This document shows, in pieces, positions 19,289-58,387 of a stretch of DNA of 64,000 nucleotides (position 1 is its first letter; each line of letters starts with the position of its first letter). The DNA lies in assembly GCF_020923435.1 (NCBI RefSeq), contig NZ_CP087263.1, positions 1,693,970-1,757,969 of the forward strand. The letters run 5' to 3'. The translations under genes were made by a program, and so were the position numbers. The notes below the pieces were generated by a model that worked only from the letters and a program-made list of their open reading frames with translations, was not told where the DNA came from and did no database searches. The stretch is from Brevibacillus humidisoli. Lineage in GTDB: Bacteria > Bacillota > Bacilli > Brevibacillales > Brevibacillaceae.

Positions 19289-20728
19289 ATGGATATGTAT
19301 CGTCGACATTATTGGTCTTTGTTCTTAGATTTCATCGATGCGTTCAAAAGTTTGAATCATAAAGGAATTCCTCTGCCGCTATTGTCTCATTTCAACGAAT
19401 ATCTGGCGGTCAGTAAAGAGGCACGGAACGAGTTGATGAAACCGGGACTGGAACAACATATCAAAGCGAAGCTGCATTCGAATGAACAGATCCAACATGG
19501 TTTTGACTCTCTCATGAAAACGATTAAGAGAGATCGTGGAAGCAAACGGAGATCGGGAAAAATCCTGCTCTGCATGGGTGGCGCTTTGCGCATCCCAGAT
19601 CAAACGCTTCAACAATTTTTTGACCCGTCCCAAACAGTATTTGTATCTTCCTGGAAAATACAGAATCCACACTATTGCGGTATACCCATCCACTCTCTTC
19701 CTGATTACGGTGCGGATGTGAGGGACCTGACGCACCAGCTCGCAACAAAAGCAAAAGCAATCTTTTCCGCTTGCGGGGATCACCCGGTGTTTGGAAATCC
19801 ACTCTTTCAGCAGAAGTTTTTGGATGAAATCCCTTTGATGGTAGAAGGAGTAGACGCTGCTTATCATTATTTGAATCAAGTGCCGGCAAAGTGTGTCATT
19901 GTCGGAACGACAGCACTCATGCCGGAACGGATTCTCACCATCATTGCCGCTTCGCAAGGAATCCCCAGCATTTGCCTGCAGCATGGCGTGGTGATGGGGG
20001 AGCCGGGGTATATGCCGGTATTCGCTTCAAAAATGGCTGTATACGGGCATTACGAAAGAGAATGGTACCTAGACCGGGGTGTCTCGGATGATTGTATTGA
20101 AATCACCGGACACCCGCGGTTTGACCGTATTTTTACCGAATCATTCATGTCCCAGAGCCATCTCAGCGAGCAGCTCGGTTTACATCCACAAAAAAAGTCA
20201 GTCCTGATCATCACGCAAGATAACGATGATTTTTGGCCTCAGTTTGTAGACCTGCTGGTACAGCATTCGTGGATGGAAATCATCATCAAACCTCACCCTC
20301 AAGAAATCGTGATGGGACGGTTGCCGATTTATGAAGCGATTTGCGAGAAGCACCCGTCAGTCAAGCTGCTGCGGCCCCGCTTCAAAGCAGAAAAGGTGTT
20401 TGATTTTGAGGTGGGACTGTACGACTTGCTGCCAAATGTCGATCTCATCGCAGTTGGATCGTCAACGGTTGGATTAGAAGCGATGTTATTTGGCAAACCT
20501 GTGGTATTCCTAAACAGCATCGGAGATTATTACAACCAGCAGAGACTGGATCCTTTCGTGCAGAGAGATCCGGAAAAACTGATCCAGATTATGAAGGGAT
20601 TAATCGACGATGTTGCTGTGCAAAACGATGCGGATAAGAAGCGAAAAGCGTTTGTCGAGTACGCTTATCCCGTGAAATGTTCCGGAAAAAAACTGATGGA
20701 GTTAATCGATAAACTGGCTGGCGCGTAG
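19289..20728 (+). CDS. GT-B-fold surface-glycan transferase (capsule/CDP-glycerol-transferase-like)
   Basis: 479 residues, no membrane segments. The C-terminal half has the GT-B pattern of KpsS/LipB-like and CDP-glycerol-transferase-like proteins: ICLQHGVVMGEPGY, YGHYEREWYLDRGV, EITGHPRFDRI, LIITQDNDDFW, EIIIKPHPQEI and AVGSSTVGLEAMLFGKPVV. The HG and HP-E motifs are those used to bind the phospho-donor in this superfamily, which includes sialyl- and Kdo-transferases. Lying directly before the nonulosonate genes, it is a candidate CMP-nonulosonate transferase (inference). Ribosome site GGGAG at good distance; ATG 19295 is an alternative start. Confidence 0.8.
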   Translation: MDMYRRHYWSLFLDFIDAFKSLNHKGIPLPLLSHFNEYLAVSKEARNELMKPGLEQHIKAKLHSNEQIQHGFDSLMKTIKRDRGSKRRSGKILLCMGGALRIPDQTLQQFFDPSQTVFVSSWKIQNPHYCGIPIHSLPDYGADVRDLTHQLATKAKAIFSACGDHPVFGNPLFQQKFLDEIPLMVEGVDAAYHYLNQVPAKCVIVGTTALMPERILTIIAASQGIPSICLQHGVVMGEPGYMPVFASKMAVYGHYEREWYLDRGVSDDCIEITGHPRFDRIFTESFMSQSHLSEQLGLHPQKKSVLIITQDNDDFWPQFVDLLVQHSWMEIIIKPHPQEIVMGRLPIYEAICEKHPSVKLLRPRFKAEKVFDFEVGLYDLLPNVDLIAVGSSTVGLEAMLFGKPVVFLNSIGDYYNQQRLDPFVQRDPEKLIQIMKGLIDDVAVQNDADKKRKAFVEYAYPVKCSGKKLMELIDKLAGA

Positions 20729-20758: not shown

Positions 20759-21763
20759 GTGTTTTTTAAAGAGAAGAAGGTCTTGCTAATTGGCGGAACG
20801 GGTACGATCGGTCAAAGTTTGCTGCGGTGGATCCTGGCAGAAGAGCCTACTGTCGTTCGAATCTTCAGTCGGGACGAACACAAACAATATTTGATGCAGG
20901 ACGAATATGGAACACGAGAAGAGATCCGTTTCCTGATCGGGGACGTTCGGGATTATGACAGAGTCTATAAGGCGATGGAAGATATCGACTACGTGTTTCA
21001 CGTCGCTGCGATGAAGCATGTGCCTTCGTGCGAGTACAATCCCTATGAAGCGGTGATGACCAATATTGTCGGCACCCATCATGTGATCAGAGCGGCGATT
21101 GCAAGAAAGGTAAAGAAGGTCGTATTTACCAGTTCGGACAAAGCGATCTCTCCCACCAACACGTATGGTGCAACCAAACTGACTGCCGAACGTCTCGTTG
21201 CGGCTGCTCAATACAGCAGAGGGAGAAGTCAAACCACGTTTGCAACAGTCAGATTTGGCAACGTGATGGGTTCGCGGGGTTCGGTAATCCCGTTGTTCGT
21301 GAAACAGATACTGGAGAATCAAAGAATCACGGTGACGAATCTGGCGATGAGCCGGTTTATGATGACCCTCGACCAGGCAACCAGGTTGACGATCAAAGCC
21401 TTAAAGGAATCCAAGGGAGGAGAAGTATTCGTTTTAAAAATGCCTGTTGTGATCCTGAAAGACTTGGTCGCGGTTGTGGTTGAAGAGACGTGCAAGAAAT
21501 ACCAGATTGCACCTGAACAGATCAAAATCGATGAGATTGGACTGCGAAAGGGAGAAAAGATGTACGAAGAGCTGATGACCTATGACGAATCGACAATTGC
21601 CTGGGAACTTCCGGATATGTTTGTGATCCCGTCGTTGTTTACGGATGAATACCAGTATTCCGCAGCCAAACAGGCGAGTCCCGGGTCTTATACCTCAAAC
21701 ACCCAGGAACCGCTCTCCCTCGGTCTTGTTCGTGAGTTGATCCAAGGTGAAAAGTTAATCTGA
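20759..21763 (+). CDS. pseB: UDP-GlcNAc 4,6-dehydratase (5-inverting), PseB-type
   Basis: 334 residues, standard for PseB. The NAD loop is GGTGTIG (residues 12-18). FTSSDKAISPTNTYGATK supplies T124, D127, K128 and Y136-x3-K140, the PseB/FlaA1 catalytic set, and RFGNVMGSRGSVIPLF follows. It removes water from UDP-GlcNAc and inverts C5 to give the 4-keto-6-deoxy-L-sugar, the first step to pseudaminic acid. GTG start after GGAGGGAGGGGGC. First pathway gene of the nonulosonate operon; PseC, F, G, I and H follow on the same strand. Confidence 0.9.
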   Translation: MFFKEKKVLLIGGTGTIGQSLLRWILAEEPTVVRIFSRDEHKQYLMQDEYGTREEIRFLIGDVRDYDRVYKAMEDIDYVFHVAAMKHVPSCEYNPYEAVMTNIVGTHHVIRAAIARKVKKVVFTSSDKAISPTNTYGATKLTAERLVAAAQYSRGRSQTTFATVRFGNVMGSRGSVIPLFVKQILENQRITVTNLAMSRFMMTLDQATRLTIKALKESKGGEVFVLKMPVVILKDLVAVVVEETCKKYQIAPEQIKIDEIGLRKGEKMYEELMTYDESTIAWELPDMFVIPSLFTDEYQYSAAKQASPGSYTSNTQEPLSLGLVRELIQGEKLI

Positions 21764-21781
21764 CAGAAAGGGGAGATCCGA

Positions 21782-22726
21782 TTGCGAGCTTTGGTAACCG
21801 GTGGAGCAGGATTTATCGGACGATCGGTGGTGAAGCAATTGCTGAGAGACGGTCACGATGTTTGGGTACTGGATAACTTCTCCAATGGGAGAGAAGTGAA
21901 TCTGGAAGAGTTTGCGGGACATCCGCATTTGCAGGATGTGCTCAAGGGAGACATCAAGGATCGCACCCTATTGACCGATTTGTTTCAGCATCGCTTCGAC
22001 GTTTGCTACCATCTGGCGGCCAGTATTAATGTACAGGACAGCATCGACGATCCGCAAACCACCTTTGAAAACGATACGATCGGTACGTTCAATGTGTTGG
22101 AAGAGGCGAAGAAGCATCAAGTGAAAACCGTCTTTATGAGCACCTGCATGGTGTACGACAGGGCGCTTAACGACGACGGCATTCGCGAAACACACCCGAC
22201 CAAGCCCGCCTCCCCCTATGCGGGTTCAAAGCTGGCGGCGGAACATATGGTCCTGTCGTATTTCTTCGCCTATGGTCTGCCAACGGTTGTCATTCGTCCT
22301 TTCAACACGTACGGCCCATTTCAAAAAACGGGAGGAGAAGGGGGCGTCGTCGCCATATTCATCAAGCGCAAATTGGCGGGGGAAGATCTCTATATTTACG
22401 GGGATGGAACACAGACACGCGATCTGCTCTATGTGGAGGACTGCGCCCATTTTGTCGTCCAATCCGGTTATTCCGATAGAGCTAACGGTCAAATCATCAA
22501 TGCGGGACTGGGTCAAGATGTTAGCATCAATCATTTGGCGAAAATGATTGTCCGCGATGAGTCGCGCATCAAACACGTTGAGCATATTCATCCGCAAAGC
22601 GAGATCGCACGGTTGTTGTGCAATAACGATAAGGCGAAACAACTGCTGAACTGGGAGCCCCAGGTGGGACTTGCGGAAGGGCTGCGCAGAACGGAAGACT
22701 GGATTCAAGCAACAAGCCTGCTGTAG
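21782..22726 (+). CDS. NAD-dependent epimerase/dehydratase (extended SDR, LegB-like)
   Basis: 314 residues: LVTGGAGFIGRSVVKQL loop, YHLAASINVQDSIDDP, FMSTCMVYDRA (Thr/Ser of the triad), SPYAGSKLAAEHM as Y-x3-K, RPFNTYGP, and YGDGTQTRDLLYVEDCA. The pattern is that of UDP/GDP-sugar 4-epimerases and 4,6-dehydratases, and it resembles LegB of the legionaminic pathway. TTG start with AAAGGGGAGATCC before it. It is not one of the six standard pseudaminic-acid enzymes although it lies between pseB and pseC, so it either changes the product or serves a second sugar. Exact reaction unknown. Confidence 0.85.
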   Translation: MRALVTGGAGFIGRSVVKQLLRDGHDVWVLDNFSNGREVNLEEFAGHPHLQDVLKGDIKDRTLLTDLFQHRFDVCYHLAASINVQDSIDDPQTTFENDTIGTFNVLEEAKKHQVKTVFMSTCMVYDRALNDDGIRETHPTKPASPYAGSKLAAEHMVLSYFFAYGLPTVVIRPFNTYGPFQKTGGEGGVVAIFIKRKLAGEDLYIYGDGTQTRDLLYVEDCAHFVVQSGYSDRANGQIINAGLGQDVSINHLAKMIVRDESRIKHVEHIHPQSEIARLLCNNDKAKQLLNWEPQVGLAEGLRRTEDWIQATSLL

Positions 22727-22737
22727 GGAGCCAAGGC

Positions 22738-23940
22738 ATGATGAGAGATAAACACAAGCTAGCCATTCACGGGGGGCAGCCGGTCAGGGAGCGCTATCTC
22801 CCGTATGGACGACAGTGGATAGACGAAGATGACGTGCAAGCAGTGGTTGATGTGCTGAGAGGCGATTATTTGACAACCGGCCCTGAGCTTGCCCGATTTG
22901 AACAAAGCATCGCCAGCTACGTGGGTGCCAAATACGCGGTTGCCTTTGCAAACGGTACGGCTGCGCTGCACGCTGCCTGTTATGCTGCGGGAATCTCTCC
23001 TGGCGACGAGGTGATTACCACAGCGATCACATTTGCCGCAACGGCCAACTGCATCCTGTACCAGGGCGGCATCCCCGTTTTTGCTGATATTGAACCGCGG
23101 ACGTGCAACGTTGACCCCCAATCAATCAGCGACCTGATTACCGAGAAGACAAAAGCGATCATTCCTGTTGATTACACGGGCCAACCAGTTGACCTGGACG
23201 CGATTCGAAAGATTGCAGCAGACTACAATCTGGTCGTGATCGAAGACGCTGCCCATGCACTAGGGGCGACGTACAAAGGTCAAAAGATTGGTTCGCTCAG
23301 CGATATGACGATGTTTAGTTTTCATCCGGTCAAACAGATCACAACGGGAGAAGGCGGCGTCATCACAACCAACAGCACCGATTACTATGAGAAACTGCTG
23401 CAGTTTCGAACGCACGGCATCACCCGCGATCCCACAAAACTGTCGCTCCCGGGGGGGCCCTGGTATTACGAGATGCAGTTTTTGGGGCTTAACTATCGGC
23501 TGACAGATATGCAGGCTGCCTTGGGAACAAGTCAATTGCAAAAGATCGACAGATTTATACGACGTCGCCAAACGTATGCAGGTATCTACAACGCAGCTTT
23601 CCAGCCTCTGCGCCAACTCCGCCTGCCGTATCAGTCGCAGGATGGCGTATCCAGTTGGCACTTGTATATCATTCGCCTCAACTTGGATCAGCTGACTGTA
23701 GGACGCAGAGAGATTTTTGAAGCGTTGCAGCAAGAAAATATAGGCGTCAATGTTCACTATCTGCCGGTTTATTGGCATCCGTACTATCAAAAACTTGGAT
23801 ACAAAAAAGGGCTTTGTCCAAATGCGGAAACATTGTACGAAGAAATGATCACCTTGCCATTGTATGCTGCCATGACAGAGCGGGATGTGCAAGATGTGAT
23901 CACAGGGGTAAAGAAGGTAGTCGCCCACTTTGCCAGGTAA
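22738..23940 (+). CDS. pseC: UDP-4-amino-4,6-dideoxy-N-acetyl-beta-L-altrosamine transaminase, PseC-type
   Basis: 400 residues of the DegT/DnrJ/EryC1 aminotransferase family (PLP fold I). LPYGRQWIDEDDVQAVVDVL near the start and the TTGPELARFE segment are typical of PseC. VIEDAAHALGA carries the PLP-ring Asp, and the PLP lysine is K199 in FHPVKQITTGEGG. It puts an amino group on C4 of the PseB product using glutamate. ATG 22738 or 22741 can be used. It lies 11 bases after the SDR gene and is co-directional with the whole pathway. Confidence 0.9.
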   Translation: MMRDKHKLAIHGGQPVRERYLPYGRQWIDEDDVQAVVDVLRGDYLTTGPELARFEQSIASYVGAKYAVAFANGTAALHAACYAAGISPGDEVITTAITFAATANCILYQGGIPVFADIEPRTCNVDPQSISDLITEKTKAIIPVDYTGQPVDLDAIRKIAADYNLVVIEDAAHALGATYKGQKIGSLSDMTMFSFHPVKQITTGEGGVITTNSTDYYEKLLQFRTHGITRDPTKLSLPGGPWYYEMQFLGLNYRLTDMQAALGTSQLQKIDRFIRRRQTYAGIYNAAFQPLRQLRLPYQSQDGVSSWHLYIIRLNLDQLTVGRREIFEALQQENIGVNVHYLPVYWHPYYQKLGYKKGLCPNAETLYEEMITLPLYAAMTERDVQDVITGVKKVVAHFAR

Positions 23941-23965
23941 GCTCCAGACGATTGAGGGATGAGAG

Positions 23966-24871
23966 ATGAAAGTAGGGATCGGCACCGTTCAGTTCGGAAT
24001 GGCGTACGGCGCGTTCAACAGGCACGGCCGGACGACAATCGATGAGGTTTCGTCCATCTTGAGAGAAGCGATGAAATGGGGAGTCTCGATCATTGACACC
24101 GCTCCCGCTTACGGAAGCAGCGAAGATGTGCTTGGTCAGTGTTTGCCCGACCCGCACCCCTTTTTCATCGTGACAAAAACACCCGTGTTTCAAACGACCG
24201 TCATAACGGAGGAACAGGCTCAGCAACTGAAAGCGACGTTGATGAGATCATTGGAAAAACTGGGCCAGTCCAGTATCTACGGTCTGCTGATCCATCACGC
24301 CGATGATTTGCTGGCAGAAGGTGGGCAGCATCTATACGAAGCACTGCAGGAGTTGAAGTATAAAGGCTTGGTGCAAAAAATCGGTGTTTCACTGTATACG
24401 GCAAGACAAATAGAAGTGATCTTTTCTCACTATCAAATGGATCTCGTTCAGGTGCCGGTGAACATGCTCGACCAGCGGTTGATCCAAGGCGGGTATTTAA
24501 AAAGACTGAAAATGTGCGGGGTAGAGGTGCATGCAAGGTCTGCCTTTTTACAAGGGTTGCTGCTAACGCCCCCTGAACAACTCCCTCCGTACTTTTACCG
24601 CATTAGACACCATTTGCGCGAGTACCACCGCTTCCTGCAAAGCCAAGGACTTTCCTCAGAACAAGCCGCCTTGGCTTTTTTGGCCAACCTGCCGGAAATC
24701 GACACGATCATTGTAGGAGTGGAAACAGCTGAACAGATGAAACAAAATTTGGCCTCGGTGCAGAAGCATCTACCCACGGTCGATTGGGCCCAATTCGCAA
24801 TTGACGATCCGGAGATGGTGGACCCGAGATATTGGCTATCACCATTTCCAAATGCGGAGGAATCTTCATGA
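23966..24871 (+). CDS. Aldo/keto reductase in the nonulosonate operon
   Basis: 301 residues. The AKR barrel signature GIGTVQFGMAYGAFN is followed by IIDTAPAYGSSE (catalytic Asp and Tyr), FFIVTKTPVF (Lys) and YGLLIHHADD (His), so the D-Y-K-H set is complete. C-terminal LPEIDTIIVGVETAEQM is the NADPH-phosphate side. AKRs of this kind often lie in pseudaminic and legionaminic loci next to the cytidylyltransferase, but their step is not part of the established pathway. They might reduce a keto group to give a variant nonulosonate. Its stop overlaps the next start by four bases (ATGA). Confidence 0.88.
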   Translation: MKVGIGTVQFGMAYGAFNRHGRTTIDEVSSILREAMKWGVSIIDTAPAYGSSEDVLGQCLPDPHPFFIVTKTPVFQTTVITEEQAQQLKATLMRSLEKLGQSSIYGLLIHHADDLLAEGGQHLYEALQELKYKGLVQKIGVSLYTARQIEVIFSHYQMDLVQVPVNMLDQRLIQGGYLKRLKMCGVEVHARSAFLQGLLLTPPEQLPPYFYRIRHHLREYHRFLQSQGLSSEQAALAFLANLPEIDTIIVGVETAEQMKQNLASVQKHLPTVDWAQFAIDDPEMVDPRYWLSPFPNAEESS

Positions 24872-25608
24872 TAGTTGGGATCTTGCAGGCCAGATGTTCG
24901 TCGACGCGTCTTCCGGCAAAGGTGATGCTTCCGATTCTCGGCGTACCGATGCTGCTGCGCCAGATAGAGAGGGTGCAGCGTTCCGCGTTAATCGGCCACT
25001 TGCTCGTTGCCACAAGCGATGATCCCACAGACGACCGAATTGAAACCTTATGCCGAGAAAATGGCATCATTTGTTATCGCGGCAAGCTGTGCGACGTGCT
25101 CGACCGATACTATCAGGCGGCTCAGCTCTTACGTCCCGAGCATATCGTCCGCCTGACGGGTGACTGTCCGCTTGCTGATTCTGTCTTGATCGACCAGGTG
25201 ATTCGCTATCATCTGAATGGCGGATACGATTATACAAGCAATGCGCTGGAGCCGACATTTCCCGATGGATTGGACGTTGAAGTGATTCGCTATGATTGCC
25301 TGGAAACAGCCTGGAAGGAAGCGGTGTCGCCTTCCCACCGAGAGCATGTCACGCCTTTTTTCTACCAGCACCCCGAAAGGTTTTCCATCGGAATCTTCAA
25401 AAACCAAACCGATCTGTCAGCCCTTCGGCTCACGGTTGACGAACAGCTCGATTTTCAACTGATCACAACCATTTATGAAGCCCTGTACCCTCAAAATCCA
25501 GCTTTCACCATCCAAGACGTTTTGGACTTCCTGGACCAGCATCCTGAGACAAAAAGGCTAAACGGATCAATTAAACGAAACGAAGGATTTCGAGCAGAGG
25601 AGGGGTGA
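24868..25608 (+). CDS. pseF: Nonulosonate cytidylyltransferase, PseF/SpsF-type
   Basis: 246 residues of the CMP-NeuAc synthetase-like GT-A fold: GILQARCSSTRLPAKVM is the CTP loop, then ATSDDPTDDRI, VRLTGDCPLAD (metal-binding Asp), EHVTPFFYQHPERF and RLTVDEQLDFQLI. This is the SpsF form known from spore-coat and flagellin-glycan loci. It would couple the nonulosonate to CMP, the last activation step. ATG 24868 fits the ATGA overlap and the GGAGGAATC ribosome site; the frame is open from 24832. Confidence 0.88.
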   Translation: MIVGILQARCSSTRLPAKVMLPILGVPMLLRQIERVQRSALIGHLLVATSDDPTDDRIETLCRENGIICYRGKLCDVLDRYYQAAQLLRPEHIVRLTGDCPLADSVLIDQVIRYHLNGGYDYTSNALEPTFPDGLDVEVIRYDCLETAWKEAVSPSHREHVTPFFYQHPERFSIGIFKNQTDLSALRLTVDEQLDFQLITTIYEALYPQNPAFTIQDVLDFLDQHPETKRLNGSIKRNEGFRAEEG

Positions 25609-25611
25609 TCG

Positions 25612-26901
25612 GTGTCAGTCCGCTATCGATGTTCGGAAGAGATGCTGCAGCGAGCGTTACGAACGATTCCGTTGGGAAGTCAAACTTTTAGCAAGAGCAA
25701 AACCCAATACCCGTTCGGCGTCTCCCCCTATTTTCTGCTCAGAGGAGCAGGCAGTCGGGTGTGGGACGTAGACGGAAACGAATATATTGATTTCGTCAAT
25801 GGCCTGGCCTCGATCAACCTGGGCTACAACGACCCGGATGTTACGGCCGCAGTAAAAGCACAGTTGGAAGACGGGGTGATTTTCTCGCTGCCCCACCCTC
25901 TGGAACACCAGGTATCGGAAAAAATAAGCGAGCTGGTGCCGTGCGCGGAAATGGTTCGGTTCGGAAAGAACGGTTCAGATGCGACAGCGGGAGCGATCCG
26001 CCTGGCACGGGCCTATACCAAGCGGGATCATGTGGCGGTTTGCGGGTATCACGGCTGGCAGGATTGGTATATCGGGACGACACCCAGAAACCGGGGAGTG
26101 CCGCAAGCAGTCCGGAATCTCAGTCATCCATTTTCCTACAACGACATCGATTCGCTCGCAACCTTGTTCAAGCAGTGGCCGGACCAGATCGCTGCTGTCA
26201 TTATGGAACCGATGAATGCAGTTCCGCCAGAAAATCACTTTTTGGAGAACATCAAAGATCTGAGTCGCCAAAACGGGGCGCTGCTGATTTTTGACGAGAC
26301 CATTACGGGATTTCGCTATGCGAAAGGCGGAGCGCAGGAGCTTTTCGGGGTTACTCCCGACTTGGCCACGTTTGGCAAGGGCATGGCAAATGGATACCCT
26401 ATCTCTGCGATCGCTGGTAAAGCGGAGATCATGCGTTTGATGGAAGAGATTTTCTTCTCGTTCACGTTTGGCGGTGAAACGCTGTCACTGGCAGCCGCTC
26501 TTGCAACGATGCAGAAGATAGAGACGCAGCCGGTGATCCAAACGTTGAGGGAGCAGGGGCAAAAGGTAGTCAGCGGTGTTCAGGATTTGATCAAACGCCA
26601 TTCGATTGAGCATCTTCTCTCTGTATCAGGGGATCCTACCTGGTCATTTTTCCATTTTAGTGATGTGGGAGCGTACAGCCAGTGGCAGATCAAAACGTTG
26701 TTCCTGCAAGAGGTGTTTGCCCGCGGCATTCTCACGGTCGGTACTCATAATCTCAGCTATGCCCATAGCGATAGCGATCTTGAGAAGCTGATGGCTGTTT
26801 ACGATGAAGTGTTCGCCGTTCTAAATATGGCGGTAGATCAGTCCAAACTGGATCAGCTGCTCACCTGCCCGCCACTGGAACCGTTATTCCGAATTCGCTA
26901 A
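25612..26901 (+). CDS. Class-III aminotransferase (glutamate-1-semialdehyde aminomutase-like)
   Basis: 429 residues, PLP fold I. FVNGLASINLGYNDPDV, RFGKNGSDATAGAIRLARAYT and GYHGWQDWYIG resemble glutamate-1-semialdehyde 2,1-aminomutase. LLIFDETITGFRYAKGG supplies the PLP-ring Asp, and the PLP lysine is K256 in FGKGMANGYPI. A heme-pathway role is unlikely because no heme gene is near. Relatives lie in Pse/Leg loci of Gram-positives and may aminate a sugar or its side chain. GTG start with GAGGAGGGG; four bases after the cytidylyltransferase. A second aminotransferase besides PseC suggests a product with an additional amino group. Confidence 0.9.
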   Translation: MSVRYRCSEEMLQRALRTIPLGSQTFSKSKTQYPFGVSPYFLLRGAGSRVWDVDGNEYIDFVNGLASINLGYNDPDVTAAVKAQLEDGVIFSLPHPLEHQVSEKISELVPCAEMVRFGKNGSDATAGAIRLARAYTKRDHVAVCGYHGWQDWYIGTTPRNRGVPQAVRNLSHPFSYNDIDSLATLFKQWPDQIAAVIMEPMNAVPPENHFLENIKDLSRQNGALLIFDETITGFRYAKGGAQELFGVTPDLATFGKGMANGYPISAIAGKAEIMRLMEEIFFSFTFGGETLSLAAALATMQKIETQPVIQTLREQGQKVVSGVQDLIKRHSIEHLLSVSGDPTWSFFHFSDVGAYSQWQIKTLFLQEVFARGILTVGTHNLSYAHSDSDLEKLMAVYDEVFAVLNMAVDQSKLDQLLTCPPLEPLFRIR

Positions 26902-26913
26902 GGGGTATGCTCT

Positions 26914-27996
26914 GTGAACGTATTCTTTCGTGTTGATGCATCCATTTCAATTGGCACAGGTCACGTGATGCGCTGCCTATCGCTTGCTGAGGAACTTCGC
27001 GCAAGAGGTGCCAGCATTTCGTTTCTGTGCCGGAAGCTCACAGGCGATCTATGTGGACAGATTGAGCAGAAGGGTTTTCCCGTCTACCGGATCAGCGATG
27101 GAGACTCTGATGTGGAACGATCGATCGCTGTTCTGCAGCGAGAGTCAGCAGTGGTCGACTGGCTGATCGTCGATCATTACGGCCTTGACGCGAAGTGGGA
27201 ACGTCGGGTGCGACCATATGTGAAGAAACTGCTAGTGATCGATGATTTGGCAAACCGGCCTCACGACTGTGATCTGCTGCTGGATCAAAATATATATGAA
27301 CAGATGGAGTCTCGTTATGATCAACGGGTTCCTCCTCACTGCATCAAACTGTTGGGGCCGCGTTTTGCCCTGCTGCGGACTGAATTCAGAGAAGTTCGAA
27401 AACAAATGAGGCAACGTCACGAGCTCCATCGCATTTTCATATTTTTCGGCGGAAGCGATCCGACCAACGAAACGCGAAAAGCGCTCGAAGCCATTCAAGC
27501 TTGGCACGGGAAAAGGCTTGCCGTTGACGTGGTTGTCGGCGGGATCAATCCGCACAAAGAACAGATCAGACACTTCTGCGCATCACTGCCGCATGCACAG
27601 TATCATTGCCAGATTCCCCATATCGCTGCGTTGATGGCGCGGGCTGACCTCGCCATTTGCGCGGGCGGGACCGTGACATGGGAGAGGTTCTGTCTGGGAC
27701 TGCCGGCGATCGTCATCGCTGTGGCGGAGAACCAGATGGCACTCGCGCAAAACACGCATCAACTTGGGATCGACTGCTATCTGGGAAGATCAGCAGATGT
27801 GACGCCTGAGCGGATTCAGCTGGAACTGAGCAATCTGGCGGAAAACTCATCCAGACTGATGCAGGCTGGGCGGAGGGCGATTGCGTTGGTGGACGGGTAC
27901 GGTGTCTCACGTGTTATTACCCATATGAAAGAACTTCTACACGAACGGGTAAAGGGAGGGGCGGACATTGCCAGTGACCGTTCAGATCGGGGCTAA
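26914..27996 (+). CDS. pseG: UDP-2,4-diacetamido-2,4,6-trideoxy-L-altropyranose hydrolase, PseG-type
   Basis: 360 residues, MurG-like GT-B fold. FFRVDASISIGTGHVMRCLSLA contains the catalytic His and the GTGH motif that marks PseG. LIVDHYGLDAKWER, FIFFGGSDPTNETRKAL and ICAGGTVTWERFCLGLPAIV follow. It cleaves UDP from the diacetamido sugar, the step that most clearly separates the pseudaminic route (PseG) from the legionaminic one (NeuC-like epimerase). GTG start with AAGGGG. The last 29 bases overlap the synthase start, indicating translational coupling. Confidence 0.92.
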   Translation: MNVFFRVDASISIGTGHVMRCLSLAEELRARGASISFLCRKLTGDLCGQIEQKGFPVYRISDGDSDVERSIAVLQRESAVVDWLIVDHYGLDAKWERRVRPYVKKLLVIDDLANRPHDCDLLLDQNIYEQMESRYDQRVPPHCIKLLGPRFALLRTEFREVRKQMRQRHELHRIFIFFGGSDPTNETRKALEAIQAWHGKRLAVDVVVGGINPHKEQIRHFCASLPHAQYHCQIPHIAALMARADLAICAGGTVTWERFCLGLPAIVIAVAENQMALAQNTHQLGIDCYLGRSADVTPERIQLELSNLAENSSRLMQAGRRAIALVDGYGVSRVITHMKELLHERVKGGADIASDRSDRG

Positions 27997-29002
27997 ATCT
28001 GTCGGAGAAGATCATCCCTGCTTCATCATTGCTGAGGCAGGGTCCAACCACAACCAGGACAAACAATTGGCGAAAGAATTGATCGATGTTGCAGCCGAAG
28101 CCGGAGCAGATGCGGTCAAATTCCAAACGTTCAGCGCTGATAAACTATACTCCAAGAAAGCACCCAGGTTTACCTATCTGAAAGACGCAAATGTGTACGA
28201 GTTGATCAAAAGCATCGAACTGCCCCGTGAATGGCAGCAAGAGTTGGCCGATTACGCAAGAGCGAAACAAATCATGTTTATGTCAACGCCGTTTGACACG
28301 GAGGCGGTCGACCAATTGGACGCAATCGGAGTGGAAGCGTTCAAAATGGCCTCTTTTGAGCTGGTCGACCTGGAGCTATTGGCTTATACCGCGCAAAAAC
28401 AGAAACCGGTCATCATTTCGACCGGAATGGCCACTCTCGGCGACATTGAAGATGCCTTGTATGCCATCCGCAAAACGGGAAACGAACAGATCATCCTATT
28501 GCATTGCAACTCGCTCTATCCGACACCTGAACATGTGGTCAATTTGCGGGCGATCGAGACGATGAAGCGTGCTTTCCAACTTCCGGTCGGTTTTTCTGAC
28601 CATACCTTGGGGACGGTAATCCCGACGGCCGCCGCCGCCAGAGGGGCCCATGTGATTGAGAAGCATTTTACCTTAGATCGGCAGCTTGCAGGGCCAGATC
28701 ACCAATTTGCATTGGAACCGGATGAGCTAAAACAAATGATTGCCCATATCCGTACCGTCGAATCCGCCTTGGGCAGCGGCGTCAAAGCGCGTGCGCCAGA
28801 AGAAGCTGAAATGTTTCACAAAGCCCGGCGCAGCCTAGTGGCAGCGCGAAAGATTGCCGCCGGGACCAGAATTACGGAAGAGATGGTGGCGGTCAAACGC
28901 CCTGGGTACGGGATATTGCCCAAGTATAAAAAGCTTGTCGTGGGCAGAGTTGCCCAGATGGACATTGACGAAGACGATATCTTGACCTGGGACATGGTCT
29001 AA
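27968..29002 (+). CDS. pseI: Pseudaminic acid synthase, PseI/NeuB family
   Basis: 344 residues. An N-terminal NeuB TIM barrel (residues ~15-265: CFIIAEAGSNHNQD, ADAVKFQTF, FMSTPFDTEAVD, KPVIISTGMATL, LLHCNSLYPTPEHVVNL, GFSDHTLG, VIEKHFTLDR) is followed by a C-terminal SAF/antifreeze-like domain (RRSLVAARKIAAGTRI). It condenses the six-carbon sugar with phosphoenolpyruvate to the nine-carbon acid. NeuB, LegI and PseI are hard to tell apart; PseG and PseB next to it favour PseI. TTG 27968 has the best spacing to GGGAGGGG; GTG 27974 is possible. Confidence 0.92.
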   Translation: MPVTVQIGAKSVGEDHPCFIIAEAGSNHNQDKQLAKELIDVAAEAGADAVKFQTFSADKLYSKKAPRFTYLKDANVYELIKSIELPREWQQELADYARAKQIMFMSTPFDTEAVDQLDAIGVEAFKMASFELVDLELLAYTAQKQKPVIISTGMATLGDIEDALYAIRKTGNEQIILLHCNSLYPTPEHVVNLRAIETMKRAFQLPVGFSDHTLGTVIPTAAAARGAHVIEKHFTLDRQLAGPDHQFALEPDELKQMIAHIRTVESALGSGVKARAPEEAEMFHKARRSLVAARKIAAGTRITEEMVAVKRPGYGILPKYKKLVVGRVAQMDIDEDDILTWDMV

Positions 29003-29026
29003 AATCCGGAGGGAGGAGAAAACCAA

Positions 29027-29461
29027 GTGGTCATCCGGGAGGCGACGATGGAGGATGCACAGCTTTTGTTTGACTGGCGTAACGATCCGGTAACCAGAGC
29101 CAATTCTTTTCACTCCGAGCCATTGGGATGGGAAACACATGTCGCATGGTTGCAACAGGCAGTTAGCAGAGACGACCTCCACATCTTTGTCGTTGAGGAT
29201 CAGGAACAACCCATCGGGACGTTTCGGTTGAACCGGATCGACAGCGGTAGGGCCGAGATCAGCATCACCGTTGCCCCTCCATGCAGGGGAAAGGGGTTCG
29301 GCGGGCAAATCCTGACGGAAGCGGCACGAGTGGCAAGAGACCAGCTAGGGTATACCTGCTTGCAGGCACATGTAAAAGAAAGCAACATTGCGTCCAGAAA
29401 AGCGTTTTTTCGAGCAGGATATACCATTGCTTCTTATGTTCTCGAGCTTGAACTAAAGTAG
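29027..29461 (+). CDS. pseH: GNAT N-acetyltransferase, PseH-type
   Basis: 144 residues. VIREATMEDAQLLFDWRND is the PseH/RimJ-like start, PIGTFRLNR and AEISITVAPPCRGKGFGGQIL carry the acetyl-CoA loop (R/Q-x-x-G-x-G form), and SNIASRKAFFRAGY the C-terminal motif. It would acetylate the 4-amino group made by PseC, before PseG acts. GTG start after GGAGGGAGGAG, 24 bases downstream of the synthase. It completes the six-enzyme pathway in this operon. The acyl group need not be acetyl; related loci use other acyl donors. Confidence 0.87.
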   Translation: MVIREATMEDAQLLFDWRNDPVTRANSFHSEPLGWETHVAWLQQAVSRDDLHIFVVEDQEQPIGTFRLNRIDSGRAEISITVAPPCRGKGFGGQILTEAARVARDQLGYTCLQAHVKESNIASRKAFFRAGYTIASYVLELELK

Positions 29462-32767: not shown

Positions 32768-33376
32768 ATGATCTCCAAATCAACCGACATATGCTGGCAC
32801 GATTCAAAAGTAAATAAGGAGGATCGTCGAACCTTAAACGGCCACAAAAGTTGCGTGCTGTGGTTCACCGGTTTATCCGGCTCTGGAAAGTCAACATTGG
32901 CAACTGAATTGGAAAAAGAGCTCTATCAACGCAGGATACGAACCTACGTCCTGGACGGTGATAATCTTCGTTATGGCTTAAACAGGGATCTCGGTTTCAG
33001 TCGGGAAGAGAGAACCGAAAACATTCGCCGAATCGGCGAGTTATCCAAGTTGTTTGTCGATGCCGGTCTGATCACCTTATGCGCCATCATCTCACCCTTT
33101 AGGGGAGATCGGGATCAGGTCCGTTGTCTCTTTGAACCAGGAGAGTTTATCGAAATTTACGTAAAGTGCCCGCTCAGTGAATGCGAGAGAAGAGATCCAA
33201 AAGGATTGTACCAAAAAGCGAGAGCTGGGCAAATCCAAAACTTCACCGGCATCTCAGCTCCGTATGAAGTGCCCGACCAACCTGACATGATCATTGAAAC
33301 AGATAAACAATCCGTAAGCCAATCTGTGGAGCAGTTGCTCACTTATTTGCGAGAGCACAACTATATCGGAACTTAA
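32768..33376 (+). CDS. cysC: Adenylylsulfate (APS) kinase
   Basis: 202 residues, normal for CysC. The Walker A loop is WFTGLSGSGKSTLATEL (near residue 36); LDGDNLRYGLNRDLGFS, REERTENIRRIGE, CAIISPFRGDRD and FIEIYVKCPLSECERRDPKGLYQKARAG follow, all APS-kinase hallmarks. It phosphorylates APS to PAPS, the sulfate donor of sulfotransferases. No APS/PAPS reductase or sulfite reductase gene is in the window, while two sulfotransferase genes are (42293, 45279), so a role in glycan sulfation is more likely than cysteine synthesis (inference). ATG with AGGTGAAAAGG ahead. Confidence 0.94.
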   Translation: MISKSTDICWHDSKVNKEDRRTLNGHKSCVLWFTGLSGSGKSTLATELEKELYQRRIRTYVLDGDNLRYGLNRDLGFSREERTENIRRIGELSKLFVDAGLITLCAIISPFRGDRDQVRCLFEPGEFIEIYVKCPLSECERRDPKGLYQKARAGQIQNFTGISAPYEVPDQPDMIIETDKQSVSQSVEQLLTYLREHNYIGT

Positions 33377-33404
33377 TCTGCTTGTTGTTGATAGGAGAAG
33401 TCCC

Positions 33405-34166
33405 ATGGATATCTGGTTGATCATAAGCGGGTGGTGCGTCGGGATTGTGATCGGAGCTACCGGGATGGGTGGGGGGCTAATCATGACCCCTTTGTTAATA
33501 CTCGGTTTTGGCGTTCCACCAAAAGTAGCTGTCGCGACTGACTTGATTTTTGCTTCTGTCACCAAGCTGTTTGGCGCATGGCAGCACTGGCGCCAACAAA
33601 CAGTTGACTATGTGTTGTTGAAACGGGTGCTGCTGGGCAGTATTCCCGGGACGTTGATCGGTATTGTCGTATTAAAGTGGCTCGCAGATGGACATGAGAA
33701 TTTGCCGGACGAATTCATCAGCAAGACGTTGGCCATCGTGTTTTTTGTGATCGTTGCAATCATGATTCTGCAGTCCGCAAAAAAACGGATGGGGGAACAA
33801 CTGGCAGACGGGACACAGATGAAGCTGGCTAGAGTAGCCATCATCGGTTTCGTGGTCGGTTTTTTGGTCGCCGTCACCTCTGTTGGCAGCGGCAGCTTGT
33901 TTGCCGCTTTGCTGTTTTTGACCTACCCCTTTTCTGCTGCACGCCTGGTGGGCACCGATATTGTCCATGGTGTCTTGATTACTGGATTAGCTGGACTGTC
34001 CCACTTCTTTTTGGGAACGATTGACCTCGCGTTGGCCGGAAACCTGTTGCTCGGGTCGGTTCCTGGCGTGTTGATCGGAAGCAAGCTTGGTGCGGTATTG
34101 CCGGATCGGGTCATTCGTCTTGGGTTGATCGTGATGTTACTCGTCTCGGCCGTCAAACTATGGTGA
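33405..34166 (+). CDS. TauE/SafE-family membrane permease
   Basis: 253 residues with about eight hydrophobic segments in two repeated halves. Each half carries the family's glycine-rich stretch: GIVIGATGMGGGLIMTPLL, and FLVAVTSVGSGSLFAALLF. The family moves sulfite, sulfonates, sulfate or related anions. Placed between APS kinase and ATP sulfurylase (29 and 76 bases away), it most likely brings sulfate in for PAPS synthesis; export of a sulfur compound cannot be excluded. Confidence 0.9.
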   Translation: MDIWLIISGWCVGIVIGATGMGGGLIMTPLLILGFGVPPKVAVATDLIFASVTKLFGAWQHWRQQTVDYVLLKRVLLGSIPGTLIGIVVLKWLADGHENLPDEFISKTLAIVFFVIVAIMILQSAKKRMGEQLADGTQMKLARVAIIGFVVGFLVAVTSVGSGSLFAALLFLTYPFSAARLVGTDIVHGVLITGLAGLSHFFLGTIDLALAGNLLLGSVPGVLIGSKLGAVLPDRVIRLGLIVMLLVSAVKLW

Positions 34167-34242
34167 TATTTGTTTTGATTTCGTGTTGTTTGGAAAACAG
34201 TGCACGCTTTGCTAGGGAATGCAACGTCGAGGAGGAACAAAC

Positions 34243-35412
34243 ATGAATGTGACAAAGCGCTCAAGCATTTCTCCTCATGGCGGAGAACTGATTCAACGAA
34301 CTGTGACAGGCGAGGAAAGAGATGAGGTGCTGAAAAAAGCAGCAGGATTGAAGAAATTGTACATCGACACTTGGATACGATCAGACTTGGAGTTGATTGC
34401 CAATGGAGCGTTTAGTCCGTTGACCGGATTTATGGGGCAACAGGACTATTTTCATGTCCTGCGAGAGATGCGGCTCTCCTCCGGTTTGGTTTGGACACTT
34501 CCCGTGACGCTGCCCGTATCGAGGAAAGAGGCTGCAGACTTGCAAGTAGGGCAAGAGATCGCCTTAATCGGTGAAGGTGGCATCGTATATGGGATTCTGC
34601 ATCTGCATGAAAAGTATTCTTATAACAAGGAAGAAGAAGCACGATTGGTATACGGGACTGTGGATCCTGCCCATCCAGGTGTGAAAAAGATCCGGGAAAA
34701 AGGGGAGATCTATCTCGCGGGACCGATCTGGTTGTTGAATGAACCTTCGCACCACCCGTTTGAATCGTTCTATTTATCCCCAAAACAGACGCGCGATTTG
34801 TTTGCCGAGCTGGGGTGGAAGAGGATTGTTGGTTTTCAGACCAGAAATCCGATCCATCGCGCCCATGAGTATATACAGAAAGCCGCCTTGGAAACGGTAG
34901 ACGGTTTGCTGCTCCATCCATTAGTCGGGGAGACCAAGTCTGACGATATTCCTGCGCCCATTCGGATGGAAAGCTATCAGGTCTTGATGGCCAACTACTA
35001 TCCAAGCAATCGTGTACGGCTGGTGATCTTTCCAGCGGCGATGCGTTATGCGGGTCCGAGGGAGGCGATTTTTCACGCGCTTGTCCGCAAGAATTACGGA
35101 TGTACGCACTTCATTGTAGGACGGGATCACGCTGGGGTTAAAAATTATTACGGTCCTTATGACGCACAGCGGATTTTTGATCAGTTTCCAGCAGCAGATA
35201 TAGGGATTGTACCGCTCTTTTTTGAACACAGTTTTTACTGCAAAACGTGTAGCAGCATGGCTTCTGCCAAAACATGTCCGCATCCCGAAGCAGATCGGCT
35301 GACGTTAAGTGGGACGAAAGTAAGGGAGATGCTAGCGGCAGGGACCGTTCCGCCGGCAGAATTCACTCGTCCCGAGGTAGCGGATGTATTGATCAGAGGG
35401 ATGAAAGAGTAA
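34243..35412 (+). CDS. sat: Sulfate adenylyltransferase (ATP sulfurylase)
   Basis: 389 residues, typical for the single-subunit bacterial Sat without a kinase tail. [19 protein letters not shown] is the N-terminal part, [20 protein letters not shown] holds the QxRNPxHxxH nucleotide motif, and [18 protein letters not shown] the second active-site loop. A Cys/His cluster ([19 protein letters not shown]) binds metal in bacterial enzymes. It makes APS from ATP and sulfate; CysC then makes PAPS. ATG 34243 after GAGGAGG is preferred to ATG 34219. Confidence 0.95.
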
Positions 35413-41646: not shown

Positions 41647-42261
41647 ATGAGCAAACAACCGATGAAAAGCCGGGAGGAACTGTACAACTATTGGCGCAAT
41701 CCGGAAGAGGGGAACCATCCTGACAAATATATTGTACCAGTGGAAAGAAGCCGCTTTCTGCATCAGTACATCAAAAAATACGTCACAGATCCCAACGCAA
41801 GCATTCTCGAACCAGGCTGTAACGTAGGGAGAAACCTCAACTATCTTTATCAAGCCGGTTATAAAGATCTGACAGGGATTGAGATCAGTGAGAACGCAGT
41901 AAACCTGCTCAAAGAAACGTACCCCGACCTAGCCCGCGAAGCCGCGATCTACAACGCCCCGATCGAAGACGTAATCGCCACATTTAAGACGAACCAGTTT
42001 GACATGGTATACGCGATGGCTGTCTTGGAGCACATTCACCCTGACAGTGATTGGATTTTTGCTGAAATGGCGAGAATCGCCAAATCGTATATTATCACGA
42101 TAGAAGCCGAAAGCTCAGTCACCGAGAGACATTTCCCGCGAAATTACAAGCTGGTTTTTGAACCGTTTGGATTTCAGCAGATCGAAGAAGAAACCAACTG
42201 CATCAGGGCTGGCTTGGGACAGGATTTTATTGCACGGGTTTTCGAAAACAAGTGTAAGTGA
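41647..42261 (+). CDS. SAM-dependent class-I methyltransferase
   Basis: 204 residues. SILEPGCNVGRNLNYLYQAGY is SAM motif I, LTGIEISENAVNLL motif II, and FDMVYAMAVLEHIHPDSDW motif IV. The end (FGFQQIEEETNCIRAGLGQD) is as in small glycan-locus methyltransferases. It probably O-methylates a sugar of the glycan, though the acceptor cannot be read from sequence. Ribosome site GGGAGGAACG. Next to a sulfotransferase, suggesting consecutive decorations. Confidence 0.88.
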   Translation: MSKQPMKSREELYNYWRNPEEGNHPDKYIVPVERSRFLHQYIKKYVTDPNASILEPGCNVGRNLNYLYQAGYKDLTGIEISENAVNLLKETYPDLAREAAIYNAPIEDVIATFKTNQFDMVYAMAVLEHIHPDSDWIFAEMARIAKSYIITIEAESSVTERHFPRNYKLVFEPFGFQQIEEETNCIRAGLGQDFIARVFENKCK

Positions 42262-42292
42262 ATCGCCAATAGCGAGAGAAAGGAGTTTTGTA

Positions 42293-43018
42293 GTGAAACC
42301 AGCCAAGGAGCATACAGAGCGGTTGATCTTCTTTATCCATCTGCCGAAAACGTCCGGGACCACTTTGCTTGAGCTTATGACGAACCAGTATCCGTCGAGT
42401 GCTTTGCAGTTGGTTTATGGCAATGAAAAAGAGGCAATGACGAATCTCTCACAGGATACCACAGGAAACATACGATGTGTTTATGGCCACTTTATGTTCG
42501 GTTTGCATCAGTATACTTCCAGACCTTTTTCCTATGCAGCGATGCTGCGCGACCCTGTAGACAGGGTCATTTCATTGTATTACTTTCACAAAGAGAAACT
42601 GAGTCATACGACATTGCAGCAGTTTGTTTCATCCGACTTCCCTGAAGTAGAGAACCATCAGACTCTTTACCTGGCAGGCGGACAGTTTGACCTGCAACGT
42701 GCCAAAGCAAACCTGGCAACCTATTTTACGGTTGTTGGGATCACGGAGAGATTTGCTGACTCGTTGTTTTTGTTGATAAAGGAATTGGGTTGGAGCAACA
42801 TTGATGCCTATTGGTTCACCAATAGAACACCCAATCGCCCCCATAAGGATGAGATCTCCCGGGATGCGCTTGAGTTAATCATGAAGAAGAATCAACTGGA
42901 TCTTCAACTATATGCGTATGCAAAACAACTGTTTGAAGAGAAAATGGCTAACCTTGACGCTTCTACCCGCATGGAACGCGATCACTTTTTGAAAAATGTA
43001 AAAGCAATAGGAGGCTGA
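42293..43018 (+). CDS. Sulfotransferase (heparan-sulfate-type, PAPS-dependent)
   Basis: 241 residues. LIFFIHLPKTSGTTLLELM near the start is the 5'-phosphosulfate loop (PK-x-x-x-TT) of eukaryote-like carbohydrate sulfotransferases, and AAMLRDPVDRVISLYYFHKEK the 3'-phosphate loop (RDPxxR...S). The length suits a single catalytic domain without membrane anchor, so it acts in the cytoplasm on nucleotide- or lipid-linked sugar. GTG 42293 has AAAGGAG eight bases before; the frame is open from 42158, overlapping the methyltransferase gene. PAPS would come from sat/cysC at 32768-35412. Confidence 0.9.
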   Translation: MKPAKEHTERLIFFIHLPKTSGTTLLELMTNQYPSSALQLVYGNEKEAMTNLSQDTTGNIRCVYGHFMFGLHQYTSRPFSYAAMLRDPVDRVISLYYFHKEKLSHTTLQQFVSSDFPEVENHQTLYLAGGQFDLQRAKANLATYFTVVGITERFADSLFLLIKELGWSNIDAYWFTNRTPNRPHKDEISRDALELIMKKNQLDLQLYAYAKQLFEEKMANLDASTRMERDHFLKNVKAIGG

Positions 43019-57646: not shown

Positions 57647-58387
57647 ATGAGGCTGGAAGGGAAGACAGCATTAATCACAGGCGGTGGAGGCGGCATTGGC
57701 CGGGAGACAGCACTCCTGTTTGCTAGGGAAGGGGCACGACTGGTGATTGCCGATTATCGTGTCGACAGCGCCCGCAGTGTAGTTGACGAGGTCGCGGCAA
57801 TCGGTAGCGAAGCGGAATGGATACAGGTGGACGTGTCAGACCAAGAGAGCGTCAAGCGGATGGCTGGAGAAGCTCTCTCTCGATTTGACGGAATTGACAT
57901 TCTGATCAACAATGCGGGAATCACACAGGACCGGATGCTGACCAAGCTGACCACTCAAGAGTGGCAGCAGGTAATCGATGTGAACCTGAGCGGCGTTTTC
58001 TACTGCACCCAGGTATTGGTGCCGCAGATGGTGGAGAGAGGCAACGGCAAGATTGTCAACACCGCCTCCATTGTCGGCGTGCACGGCAACATCGGTCAGA
58101 GCAATTACGCCGCTTCCAAAGCAGGAGTAATCGGCATGACCAAAACCTGGGCCAAAGAATTGGGACCCAAGGGCATTCAAGTTAATGCGGTTGCGCCGGG
58201 ATTTATTGAAACGGCGATGGTTGCCACCATTCCAGAGAAAGTCATCACCAAACTGCGGGAGAGTGTCCCGCTGCGACGGTTGGGCAGTCCGCTTGATGTA
58301 GCGTACGCATACCTCTTCCTCGCCTCATCGGAATCGGACTATGTAAATGGAACAGTGCTAGCAGTGGACGGTGGTCTGGTCATCTGA
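57647..58387 (+). CDS. Classical SDR, FabG/3-hydroxyacyl dehydrogenase-like
   Basis: 246 residues. TALITGGGGGIGRETALLF (TGxxxGxG), DILINNAGITQDRML (NNAG), IVNTASIVGVHGN (catalytic Ser), NYAASKAGVIGM (Y-x3-K), VAPGFIETAM and YVNGTVLAVDGG identify a FabG- or 3-hydroxybutyrate-dehydrogenase-like enzyme. It would oxidise or reduce a 3-hydroxy/3-keto acyl compound with NAD(P). Ribosome site AAGGGGGAG. It is the last gene before the second copy of the promoter element. Confidence 0.92.
   Translation: MRLEGKTALITGGGGGIGRETALLFAREGARLVIADYRVDSARSVVDEVAAIGSEAEWIQVDVSDQESVKRMAGEALSRFDGIDILINNAGITQDRMLTKLTTQEWQQVIDVNLSGVFYCTQVLVPQMVERGNGKIVNTASIVGVHGNIGQSNYAASKAGVIGMTKTWAKELGPKGIQVNAVAPGFIETAMVATIPEKVITKLRESVPLRRLGSPLDVAYAYLFLASSESDYVNGTVLAVDGGLVI

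Follow-up and report, generated by a model that had tools for sequence, protein, structure and literature searches.

A recurring oxidoreductase, CMP-transferase and class III aminotransferase unit in a Brevibacillus humidisoli pseudaminic acid operon, and its possible role in making an 8-amino-8-deoxy sugar

Introduction

The locus described here raises the question of why an operon for pseudaminic acid (Pse) should carry two additional enzymes. It occupies positions 20759 to 29461 of a stretch of 64,000 nucleotides from Brevibacillus humidisoli (contig NZ_CP087263.1), which was analysed as a whole and is called the window below. The two enzymes are an aldo/keto reductase (AKR) and a class III aminotransferase (AT3), and their genes flank that of an SpsF-type CMP-transferase. 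We propose that AKR and AT3 would oxidise and aminate C8 within the Pen/Pal pathway for Pse, giving 8-amino-8-deoxy-Pse. The proposal is based on sequence and on analogy with known enzymes, and we regard it as evenly poised between right and wrong. The identities of the genes, the conservation of their catalytic residues, the recurrence of an AKR/SpsF/AT3 unit in other genomes, the exchange of its partners and their fusions are established here.

A wider proposal, which we hold a little less firmly, is that nonulosonic acids with a third nitrogen at C8 (8-amino-8-deoxy-Pse and its relatives) are widespread. They would be made by a portable unit of oxidoreductase, CMP-transferase and AT3, with three oxidoreductase families able to take one another's place, in many phyla and in tailed phages; the AKR arm, paired with a short-chain dehydrogenase/reductase (SDR), would give 8-epimers instead.

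Results and discussion

The pseudaminic acid operon

The operon comprises nine open reading frames, all on the + strand and in one gene order, as a preliminary description of the window had listed them:

20759..21763, + strand: Pen, UDP-GlcNAc 5,6-dehydratase (471 bits to PDB 6BWC)
21782..22726, + strand: Pal, the second Pen/Pal enzyme, giving UDP-4-keto-6-deoxy-L-AltNAc (470 bits to PDB 6BWL, 'Pal')
22738..23940, + strand: PseC aminotransferase, DegT fold (TIGR03588, 494.5 bits, cut-off 423.5)
23966..24871, + strand: AKR, predicted C8 oxidoreductase (PF00248; conserved-residue alignment)
24868..25608, + strand: SpsF-type CTP_transf_3 protein, CMP-nonulosonate synthetase (PF02348; start at ATG 24868)
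25612..26901, + strand: AT3, predicted C8-ketone aminase (PF00202; alignment; model and structure match)
26914..27996, + strand: PseG UDP-sugar hydrolase (TIGR03590, 315.1 bits, cut-off 153.55)
27968..29002, + strand: PseI/NeuB-type synthase (PF03102 and SAF domain)
29027..29461, + strand: PseH-like GNAT N-acetyltransferase (GNAT domain; PseH model 69.4 bits, cut-off 93.1)

That description had assigned six of these genes to the Pse pathway and called the other three non-canonical, and both assignments need revision. PseC and PseG pass their cut-offs, the synthase is borderline (in NCBIfam, 337.1 for the PseI model with a cut-off of 340.25, and 403.6 for NeuB_NnaB with a cut-off of 399.65), and the PseH-like protein falls below its own. 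The supposed PseB is Pen, the NCBIfam PseB model failing for it (311.9 bits, cut-off 407.75), and the supposed PseF is of the SpsF type, the PseF model (TIGR03584) giving 23.7 bits where the cut-off is 205.7. SpsF is the usual type of CMP-transferase in the window's phylum, being present in 33 of 40 control PseG neighbourhoods; these controls are all 41 PseG matches in 299 genomes of the phylum minus the window's own.

AKR and AT3 are indeed extra to the Pse pathway, but the third supposed extra, the gene at 21782, is not. It had been described as a LegB-like SDR, an identity that is rejected here (LegB model 187.1 bits, cut-off 475), and it is Pal. The structure 6BWC has been named as Pen, and in B. 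thuringiensis Pen and Pal together convert UDP-GlcNAc through a 5,6-ene to UDP-4-keto-6-deoxy-L-AltNAc (PMC8987622). Because this pair is a known entry route to Pse, Pal is a normal step of the pathway and the standard partner of Pen. In the window, Pen and Pal match the crystal structures of their Bacillus thuringiensis counterparts at about 470 bits each, and they adjoin PseC, PseG, the PseI/NeuB-type synthase and the PseH-like protein; the difference from the B. thuringiensis pathway is that AKR and AT3 are added.

The tight spacing reported earlier is real. The AKR stop and the SpsF start share a 4-base ATGA overlap if SpsF begins at ATG 24868, which has GGAGG upstream, and AT3 starts 3 bases after the SpsF stop. 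The other gaps measure 18 (Pen to Pal), 11 (Pal to PseC), 25 (PseC to AKR), 12 (AT3 to PseG) and 24 bases (PseI to PseH), and PseI overlaps PseG by 29 bases if its listed TTG start is taken. By Pfam domain search, the PseH-like protein is the only GNAT in the operon. Pfam and profile searches found no classical SDR in the operon, the sole match in the window being at 57647. A search for promoters and terminators yielded 7 and 13, where chance alone would give 15.5 and 15.4. The genome, a single contig of 4.9 Mb, encodes Spo0A, which among 14 control genomes matched in Bacillus subtilis only; on this basis the window's phylum is taken to be Bacillota. Far from the window, the same genome has another strong match to the NeuB family (G000:C1:3830834-3831631).

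Recurrence of the unit across genomes

GTDB genome contigs were scanned with the window AT3 alone as query, and the best 80 of 591 stretches encoding a relative were taken as its close family. On the AT3 tree these loci are labelled with 19 different phyla, and many derive from metagenome bins. Partner families were scored within 6 kb of AT3, using models built from clusters found in the AT3 loci themselves. At least one of PseB, PseC, PseG and PseI is present in 69 of the 80 loci (43, 43, 40 and 55 loci respectively), a co-occurrence that bears out the earlier suggestion that AKR and AT3 belong to a nonulosonate route. A CMP-transferase of SpsF type accompanies AT3 in 63 loci and one of PseF/NeuA type in 8; both are found together in 0, and neither in 9. 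Exactly one oxidoreductase partner is present in 66/80 loci, this being an AKR in 38, a Gfo/Idh/MocA protein in 17 and a classical SDR in 11; one further locus has two, making 67 with any partner. AKR, SpsF and AT3 occur together in 37 loci, and in 36 of these on the same strand. SpsF and AT3 are fused in 20 of the 80 loci, one of which (L064) encodes a triple Gfo~SpsF~AT3 fusion according to Pfam, and in L071 a Gfo/Idh/MocA protein is fused to AT3. These counts support a link of AKR and AT3 with nonulosonate biosynthesis that extends well past the window genome.

A maximum-likelihood tree of AT3 (81 rows, with bootstrap not fully settled) was used to follow the partners. The AKR label changes 8 times, with at least 7 changes forced by well-supported branches, Gfo 10 times (7 forced), SDR 3 times (3 forced) and the absence of a partner 10 times (8 forced). 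In all, 18 changes are counted, against a mean of 37.9 when labels are shuffled. Partners are thus clustered as descent predicts, yet the partner family has repeatedly been replaced while AT3 was kept. We read these swaps around a constant AT3 as a sign that AKR, Gfo/Idh/MocA and classical SDR proteins supply one shared reaction, which would convert a hydroxyl into the ketone used by AT3.

Five loci (L084, L090, L091, L094 and L096) have a different setting, in which AT3 lies with transketolase parts, a classical SDR, a HAD phosphatase, a NeuB-like synthase and SpsF. PseB, PseC and PseG were not found in the stretches fetched for them (Pfam was run on L090 only), and these loci possibly make an unknown amino-ulosonic acid. 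Because synthase, CMP-transferase, oxidoreductase and AT3 are the part common to the Pse and the transketolase-type loci, AT3 would be placed after the condensation.

Within the window's phylum, the 40 control neighbourhoods contain AKR in 5, AT3 in 3, Gfo in 0 and classical SDR in 4. AT3 or SDR accompanies AKR in 5/5 cases, against 2/35 neighbourhoods without AKR (Fisher p 3.2e-5, an optimistic value since the genomes are related). Pal (at least 500 bits) is found in 7/40, five of these seven having a Pen-type first enzyme, and neither AKR nor AT3 was found in any of the 7. Standard PseB (at least 500 bits) occurs in 11 control loci, none with a Pal of at least 500 bits.

A census of the 299 genomes with an AKR profile, which is independent of AT3, gave 8 matches at E<=1e-30. 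Four adjoin SpsF and AT3, three adjoin SpsF and an adh_short_C2 classical SDR (L145, L154 and L182), and the remaining one is weak (107 bits) and away from any Pse gene. Single-protein AT3 matches at E<=1e-70 occur in 12/299 genomes and PseG in 39, with both in 6 (Fisher p 0.0017). For two of these six (G134 and G202) the AT3 and PseG matches are on different contigs. Nine AT3 matches lie outside the PseG neighbourhoods that were fetched. One of them (L186, in G134) is surrounded by PseF, an SDR and PseI; around the other eight (L184, L185 and L187-L192; 324-477 bits) the models gave no Pse-pathway gene, and these eight resemble other enzymes of class III.

AKR and AT3 as enzymes

Residues D44, Y49, K71 and H110 of AKR, which we take to be the catalytic tetrad of this family, are invariant in 14 aligned sequences. 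In AT3, K256, presumably the lysine that binds pyridoxal phosphate (PLP), is invariant in 17 aligned sequences, three of them from viral contigs. Judged by these residues, a PLP aminotransferase with its conserved lysine adjoins an oxidoreductase with its conserved catalytic residues, as would be expected of a pair that carries out oxidation and transamination.

AT3 resembles glutamate-1-semialdehyde aminomutase (GSAM/HemL). It was rejected as a true HemL, since it misses every listed curated cut-off (TIGR00713 269.7, cut-off 527.3; PRK06209 435.3, cut-off 486). Three alignments agree that the NSPVR segment near the N terminus of GSAM, to which we ascribe a role in substrate binding, is replaced in AT3 by a sequence of the QTFSKS type. 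The AlphaFold model of AT3, made from a 17-row alignment, has a mean predicted local distance difference test score (pLDDT) of 89.3, with residues 148-159 under 50. Its best structural match is FumI (6hbv; Z 45.4, root-mean-square deviation (rmsd) 1.8, 401 residues aligned), with which GSAM is tied (2hoz; Z 45.0, rmsd 1.9, 394 aligned). FumI acts on a carbon adjoining a methyl group.

In the mechanism we propose, Pen, Pal, PseC, PseH, PseG and PseI would build Pse by the steps known for these families. AKR would oxidise the C8 hydroxyl, which neighbours the C9 methyl, and so form a methyl ketone, and AT3 would transaminate this ketone to an amine. SpsF would couple the product to CMP, its order relative to oxidation and amination being left free. 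The final product would be CMP-8-amino-8-deoxy-pseudaminic acid (5,7,8-triamino-3,5,7,8,9-pentadeoxynonulosonic acid), whose new amine might stay free or be acylated later. The amination predicts a one-unit mass shift of the sugar. The preliminary description had thought of a product with, for example, another amino or reduced group; another amino group is now the best reading, while the chemistry is only predicted.

There are precedents for such chemistry. KdnB and KdnA of Shewanella, in making Kdo8N, likewise oxidise and transaminate an ulosonic acid at its end, although they have other folds than AKR and AT3 and act at C8 of an octulosonate. In gentamicin biosynthesis, the class III enzyme GenB1 and the dehydrogenase GenQ aminate an exocyclic carbon bearing a methyl group (PMC4039129). 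In that pathway too, the exocyclic carbon carries a secondary alcohol beside a methyl, and an oxidoreductase and a class III aminotransferase convert this alcohol to an amine; GenQ, however, is a flavoprotein, the two enzymes work on an aminoglycoside, and no CMP-sugar is involved.

EpaA/EpaB and the case for C8

The case for C8 comes from prophages of Acinetobacter baumannii, in which EpaA (542 amino acids; CTP_transf_3 at 5-192, AKR at 239-525) and EpaB (an adh_short_C2 SDR of 262 amino acids) together invert C8, converting Pse to 8-epi-Pse, as was demonstrated by nuclear magnetic resonance of the capsule (PMC12053666). A CTP_transf_3 domain and an AKR act together on Pse there, and the window has both families. 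The differences are that transferase and AKR are fused in EpaA but encoded by two overlapping genes in the window, and that the partner is a classical SDR rather than a PLP aminotransferase. A chain of EpaA type is found in L182, where by Pfam a single protein of 546 amino acids (CTP 7-171, AKR 252-530) adjoins an SDR of 267 amino acids. Its AKR is homologous to that of the window (26% over 262 residues), and the AKR of L145 is 32% identical to it over 299 residues. L145, L154 and L182, from three genomes of the window's phylum, are predicted from their gene content to be producers of 8-epi-Pse. If AKR with SDR works at C8, AKR with AT3 would most simply act there too; in Pse this carbon bears a secondary hydroxyl and has a methyl group as its neighbour. 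A search of 50,697 phage records gave no match with the AKR query and one match with the SpsF query, and a scan of viral contigs with AKR gave no CTP~AKR fusion among 7 loci.

Published gene clusters and the Aeromonas AH-1 sugar

The association of these genes is partly known already, and it is the functional reading that is new, as far as our literature search goes. The same gene order as in the window unit is reported for the polar flagellin glycosylation islands of Aeromonas group I, subgroups A to E (PMC7874193), and the Aeromonas loci L050 and L052-L054 match the window unit by sequence. These islands differ in having PseB instead of Pen/Pal, and in their flagellar setting; the accessible text of that report gives no function to the AKR and AT3 genes. 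In a cluster from Vibrio, an SpsF~AKR protein is followed by a dehydrogenase (PMC7371886), and in a table of O-antigen genes of Legionella pneumophila serogroup 6, PseG, a glutamate-1-semialdehyde aminomutase and an acylneuraminate cytidylyltransferase are consecutive entries (PMC3694923). The function proposed here for AKR and AT3 is not assigned in the accessible parts of either paper. The open-access literature searched yielded no report of 8-amino-Pse or of a function for the AKR/AT3 pair, although we do not claim that none is in print.

A sugar of odd nominal mass, 403 Da, with an oxonium ion at m/z 404, has been described on the flagellin of A. hydrophila AH-1, and some of its fragments differ by one unit from the fragments that a Pse derivative gives (PMC4691044). 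It is likely that AH-1 carries AKR and AT3, because outside group II 27 A. hydrophila strains belong to subgroup IA and 2 to IB, and because no glycosyltransferase genes lie among the pse genes of AH-1 (PMC7874193). The sugar was rejected as proof of a triamino product, since the formula ranked first by the authors, C19H32O9, has no nitrogen, since by our calculation 43 combinations of the allowed groups on a diamino sugar, and 44 on a triamino sugar, fit 402.9-403.45, and since AKR and AT3 are only likely in AH-1.

Phage contigs

With the AT3 alignment as query, IMG/VR yielded 45 contigs (L193-L237), 41 of which score at least 300 bits. The nonulosonate pathways of these contigs are compact. 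A nonulosonate gene is present on 37 of the 41, PseB (at least 200 bits) on 31, SpsF on 30, a GNAT on 26, PseI on 25 and a recognised oxidoreductase on 15. PseC (at least 150 bits) is present on one and PseG (at least 100 bits) on none. There are weaker PseC matches in L216, L221, L227 and L234, the last of these contigs lying just under the thresholds (AT3 267, PseB 197 and PseC 191 bits). In L194 the order is AKR-SpsF-AT3-GNAT-PseI-PseB, and it is a phage, since these genes sit between those for terminase and portal; the viral status of most other contigs is IMG/VR's own classing.

Weighing of the proposal and its alternatives

Several points weigh against amination at C8. AKRs usually reduce their substrates, so that here the enzyme must run as an oxidase, unless the roles differ. 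No oxidoreductase partner was found within 6 kb in 13 of the 80 AT3 loci, and no Pse-pathway gene in 11 of the 80. Some of these absences are due to truncation, because contigs end near AT3 (for example L039 and L074), and in L048 an AKR lies about 8 kb from AT3, outside the range scored. The link from EpaA to the window AKR runs through its published architecture and through L182. The C4 hydroxyl of Pse is also free, and C8 as the site, like the reactions of AKR and AT3, is what we infer. The formula preferred for the AH-1 sugar lacks nitrogen (PMC4691044). Lastly, no DegT protein (E<=1e-8) and no PseG (E<=1e-5) was found in any of 26 viral records tested, which were taken from the 45 after leaving out five contigs with a PseC match (L203, L216, L221, L227 and L234), and which may be fragments. 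Since viral AT3 is mostly without PseC, there is room for AT3 to do the job of PseC there.

One alternative, which we consider unlikely, is that AKR and AT3 leave the sugar itself unchanged and build an amino or hydroxy acid substituent for transfer to a nitrogen of Pse by an acyltransferase. The odd mass of the AH-1 sugar would suit a diamino sugar whose acyl group contains nitrogen as well as a triamino sugar. Within 6 kb of AT3 there is a GNAT of a second cluster in 28/80 loci, a PIG-L deacetylase in 12/80, a formyltransferase-like gene in 13/80 (named by eye; the one member tested had no Pfam match at 1e-10) and an amidotransferase-like gene in 8/80. The fusions, however, join AT3 to the CMP-sugar transferase (20/80) and to a Gfo/Idh/MocA protein (2/80), no acyltransferase~AT3 fusion was found among the families modelled, and the window operon has a single GNAT.

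Equally unlikely is an oxidation and amination at another carbon, either as an amination of C4 or as a GSAM-like shift of nitrogen involving C7 and C8. AT3 belongs to a GSAM-like family, an 8-keto-7-amino sugar would look like an aminomutase substrate, and there is the free hydroxyl at C4. On the other hand, in the established pathway C7 is normally N-acetylated before PseG and PseI act, the NSPVR segment of GSAM is replaced in AT3, and C8 is where the EpaA/EpaB pair, with its AKR, acts (PMC12053666).

Somewhat less probable again is that AT3 acts before the condensation, duplicating or replacing PseC on the UDP-4-keto sugar. The viral loci are the best evidence for this, since PseB is present in 31/41 and PseC in none of these 31, and since 26/26 viral records tested are without DegT protein and without PseG. 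Phages may nonetheless borrow PseC and PseG from the host, which would equally explain their gene set, and the records may be fragments. In genomes, PseC lies within 6 kb of AT3 in 43/80 loci, the PseC of the window passes its cut-off, and the transketolase-type loci pair AT3 with NeuB, SpsF and SDR without PseB or PseC. The least probable alternative is that the operon yields ordinary Pse5Ac7Ac, which needs neither enzyme (AKR is missing from 35/40 and AT3 from 37/40 control neighbourhoods), and that AKR and AT3 serve unrelated metabolism; the association across phyla, with fusions, swapped partners and tight packing of the genes, speaks against it.

If C8 is oxidised and aminated as we propose, a triamino sialic-acid-like sugar would be added to bacterial surface chemistry, and it could be explained how a phage or bacterium makes a zwitterion of a cap sugar that carries a negative charge. 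It would also provide a function for the two genes listed without one in the accessible account of the Aeromonas flagellar islands (PMC7874193).

Neighbouring genes

One further gene lies directly upstream of the operon:

19289..20728, + strand: protein of 479 amino acids, candidate glycosyltransferase (sub-threshold Pfam matches to Glyphos_transf and Capsule_synth)

Its two Pfam matches have E values of 8e-4 and 1e-3, both below the cut-offs of Pfam, with none at 1e-4. Because relatives occupy three other Pse loci (L017, L140 and L173; there is a weak one in L168), this protein may be a nonulosonate transferase.

It is also of note that genes with a possible role in sulfation lie elsewhere in the window. 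APS kinase and ATP sulfurylase are encoded within 32768-35412 and are separated by a gene that by eye is permease-like. A Sulfotransfer_2 protein is at 42158-43018, and a protein at 45279-47123, which has no Pfam match at 1e-5, is sulfotransferase-like by eye. The surface glycan may be sulfated.

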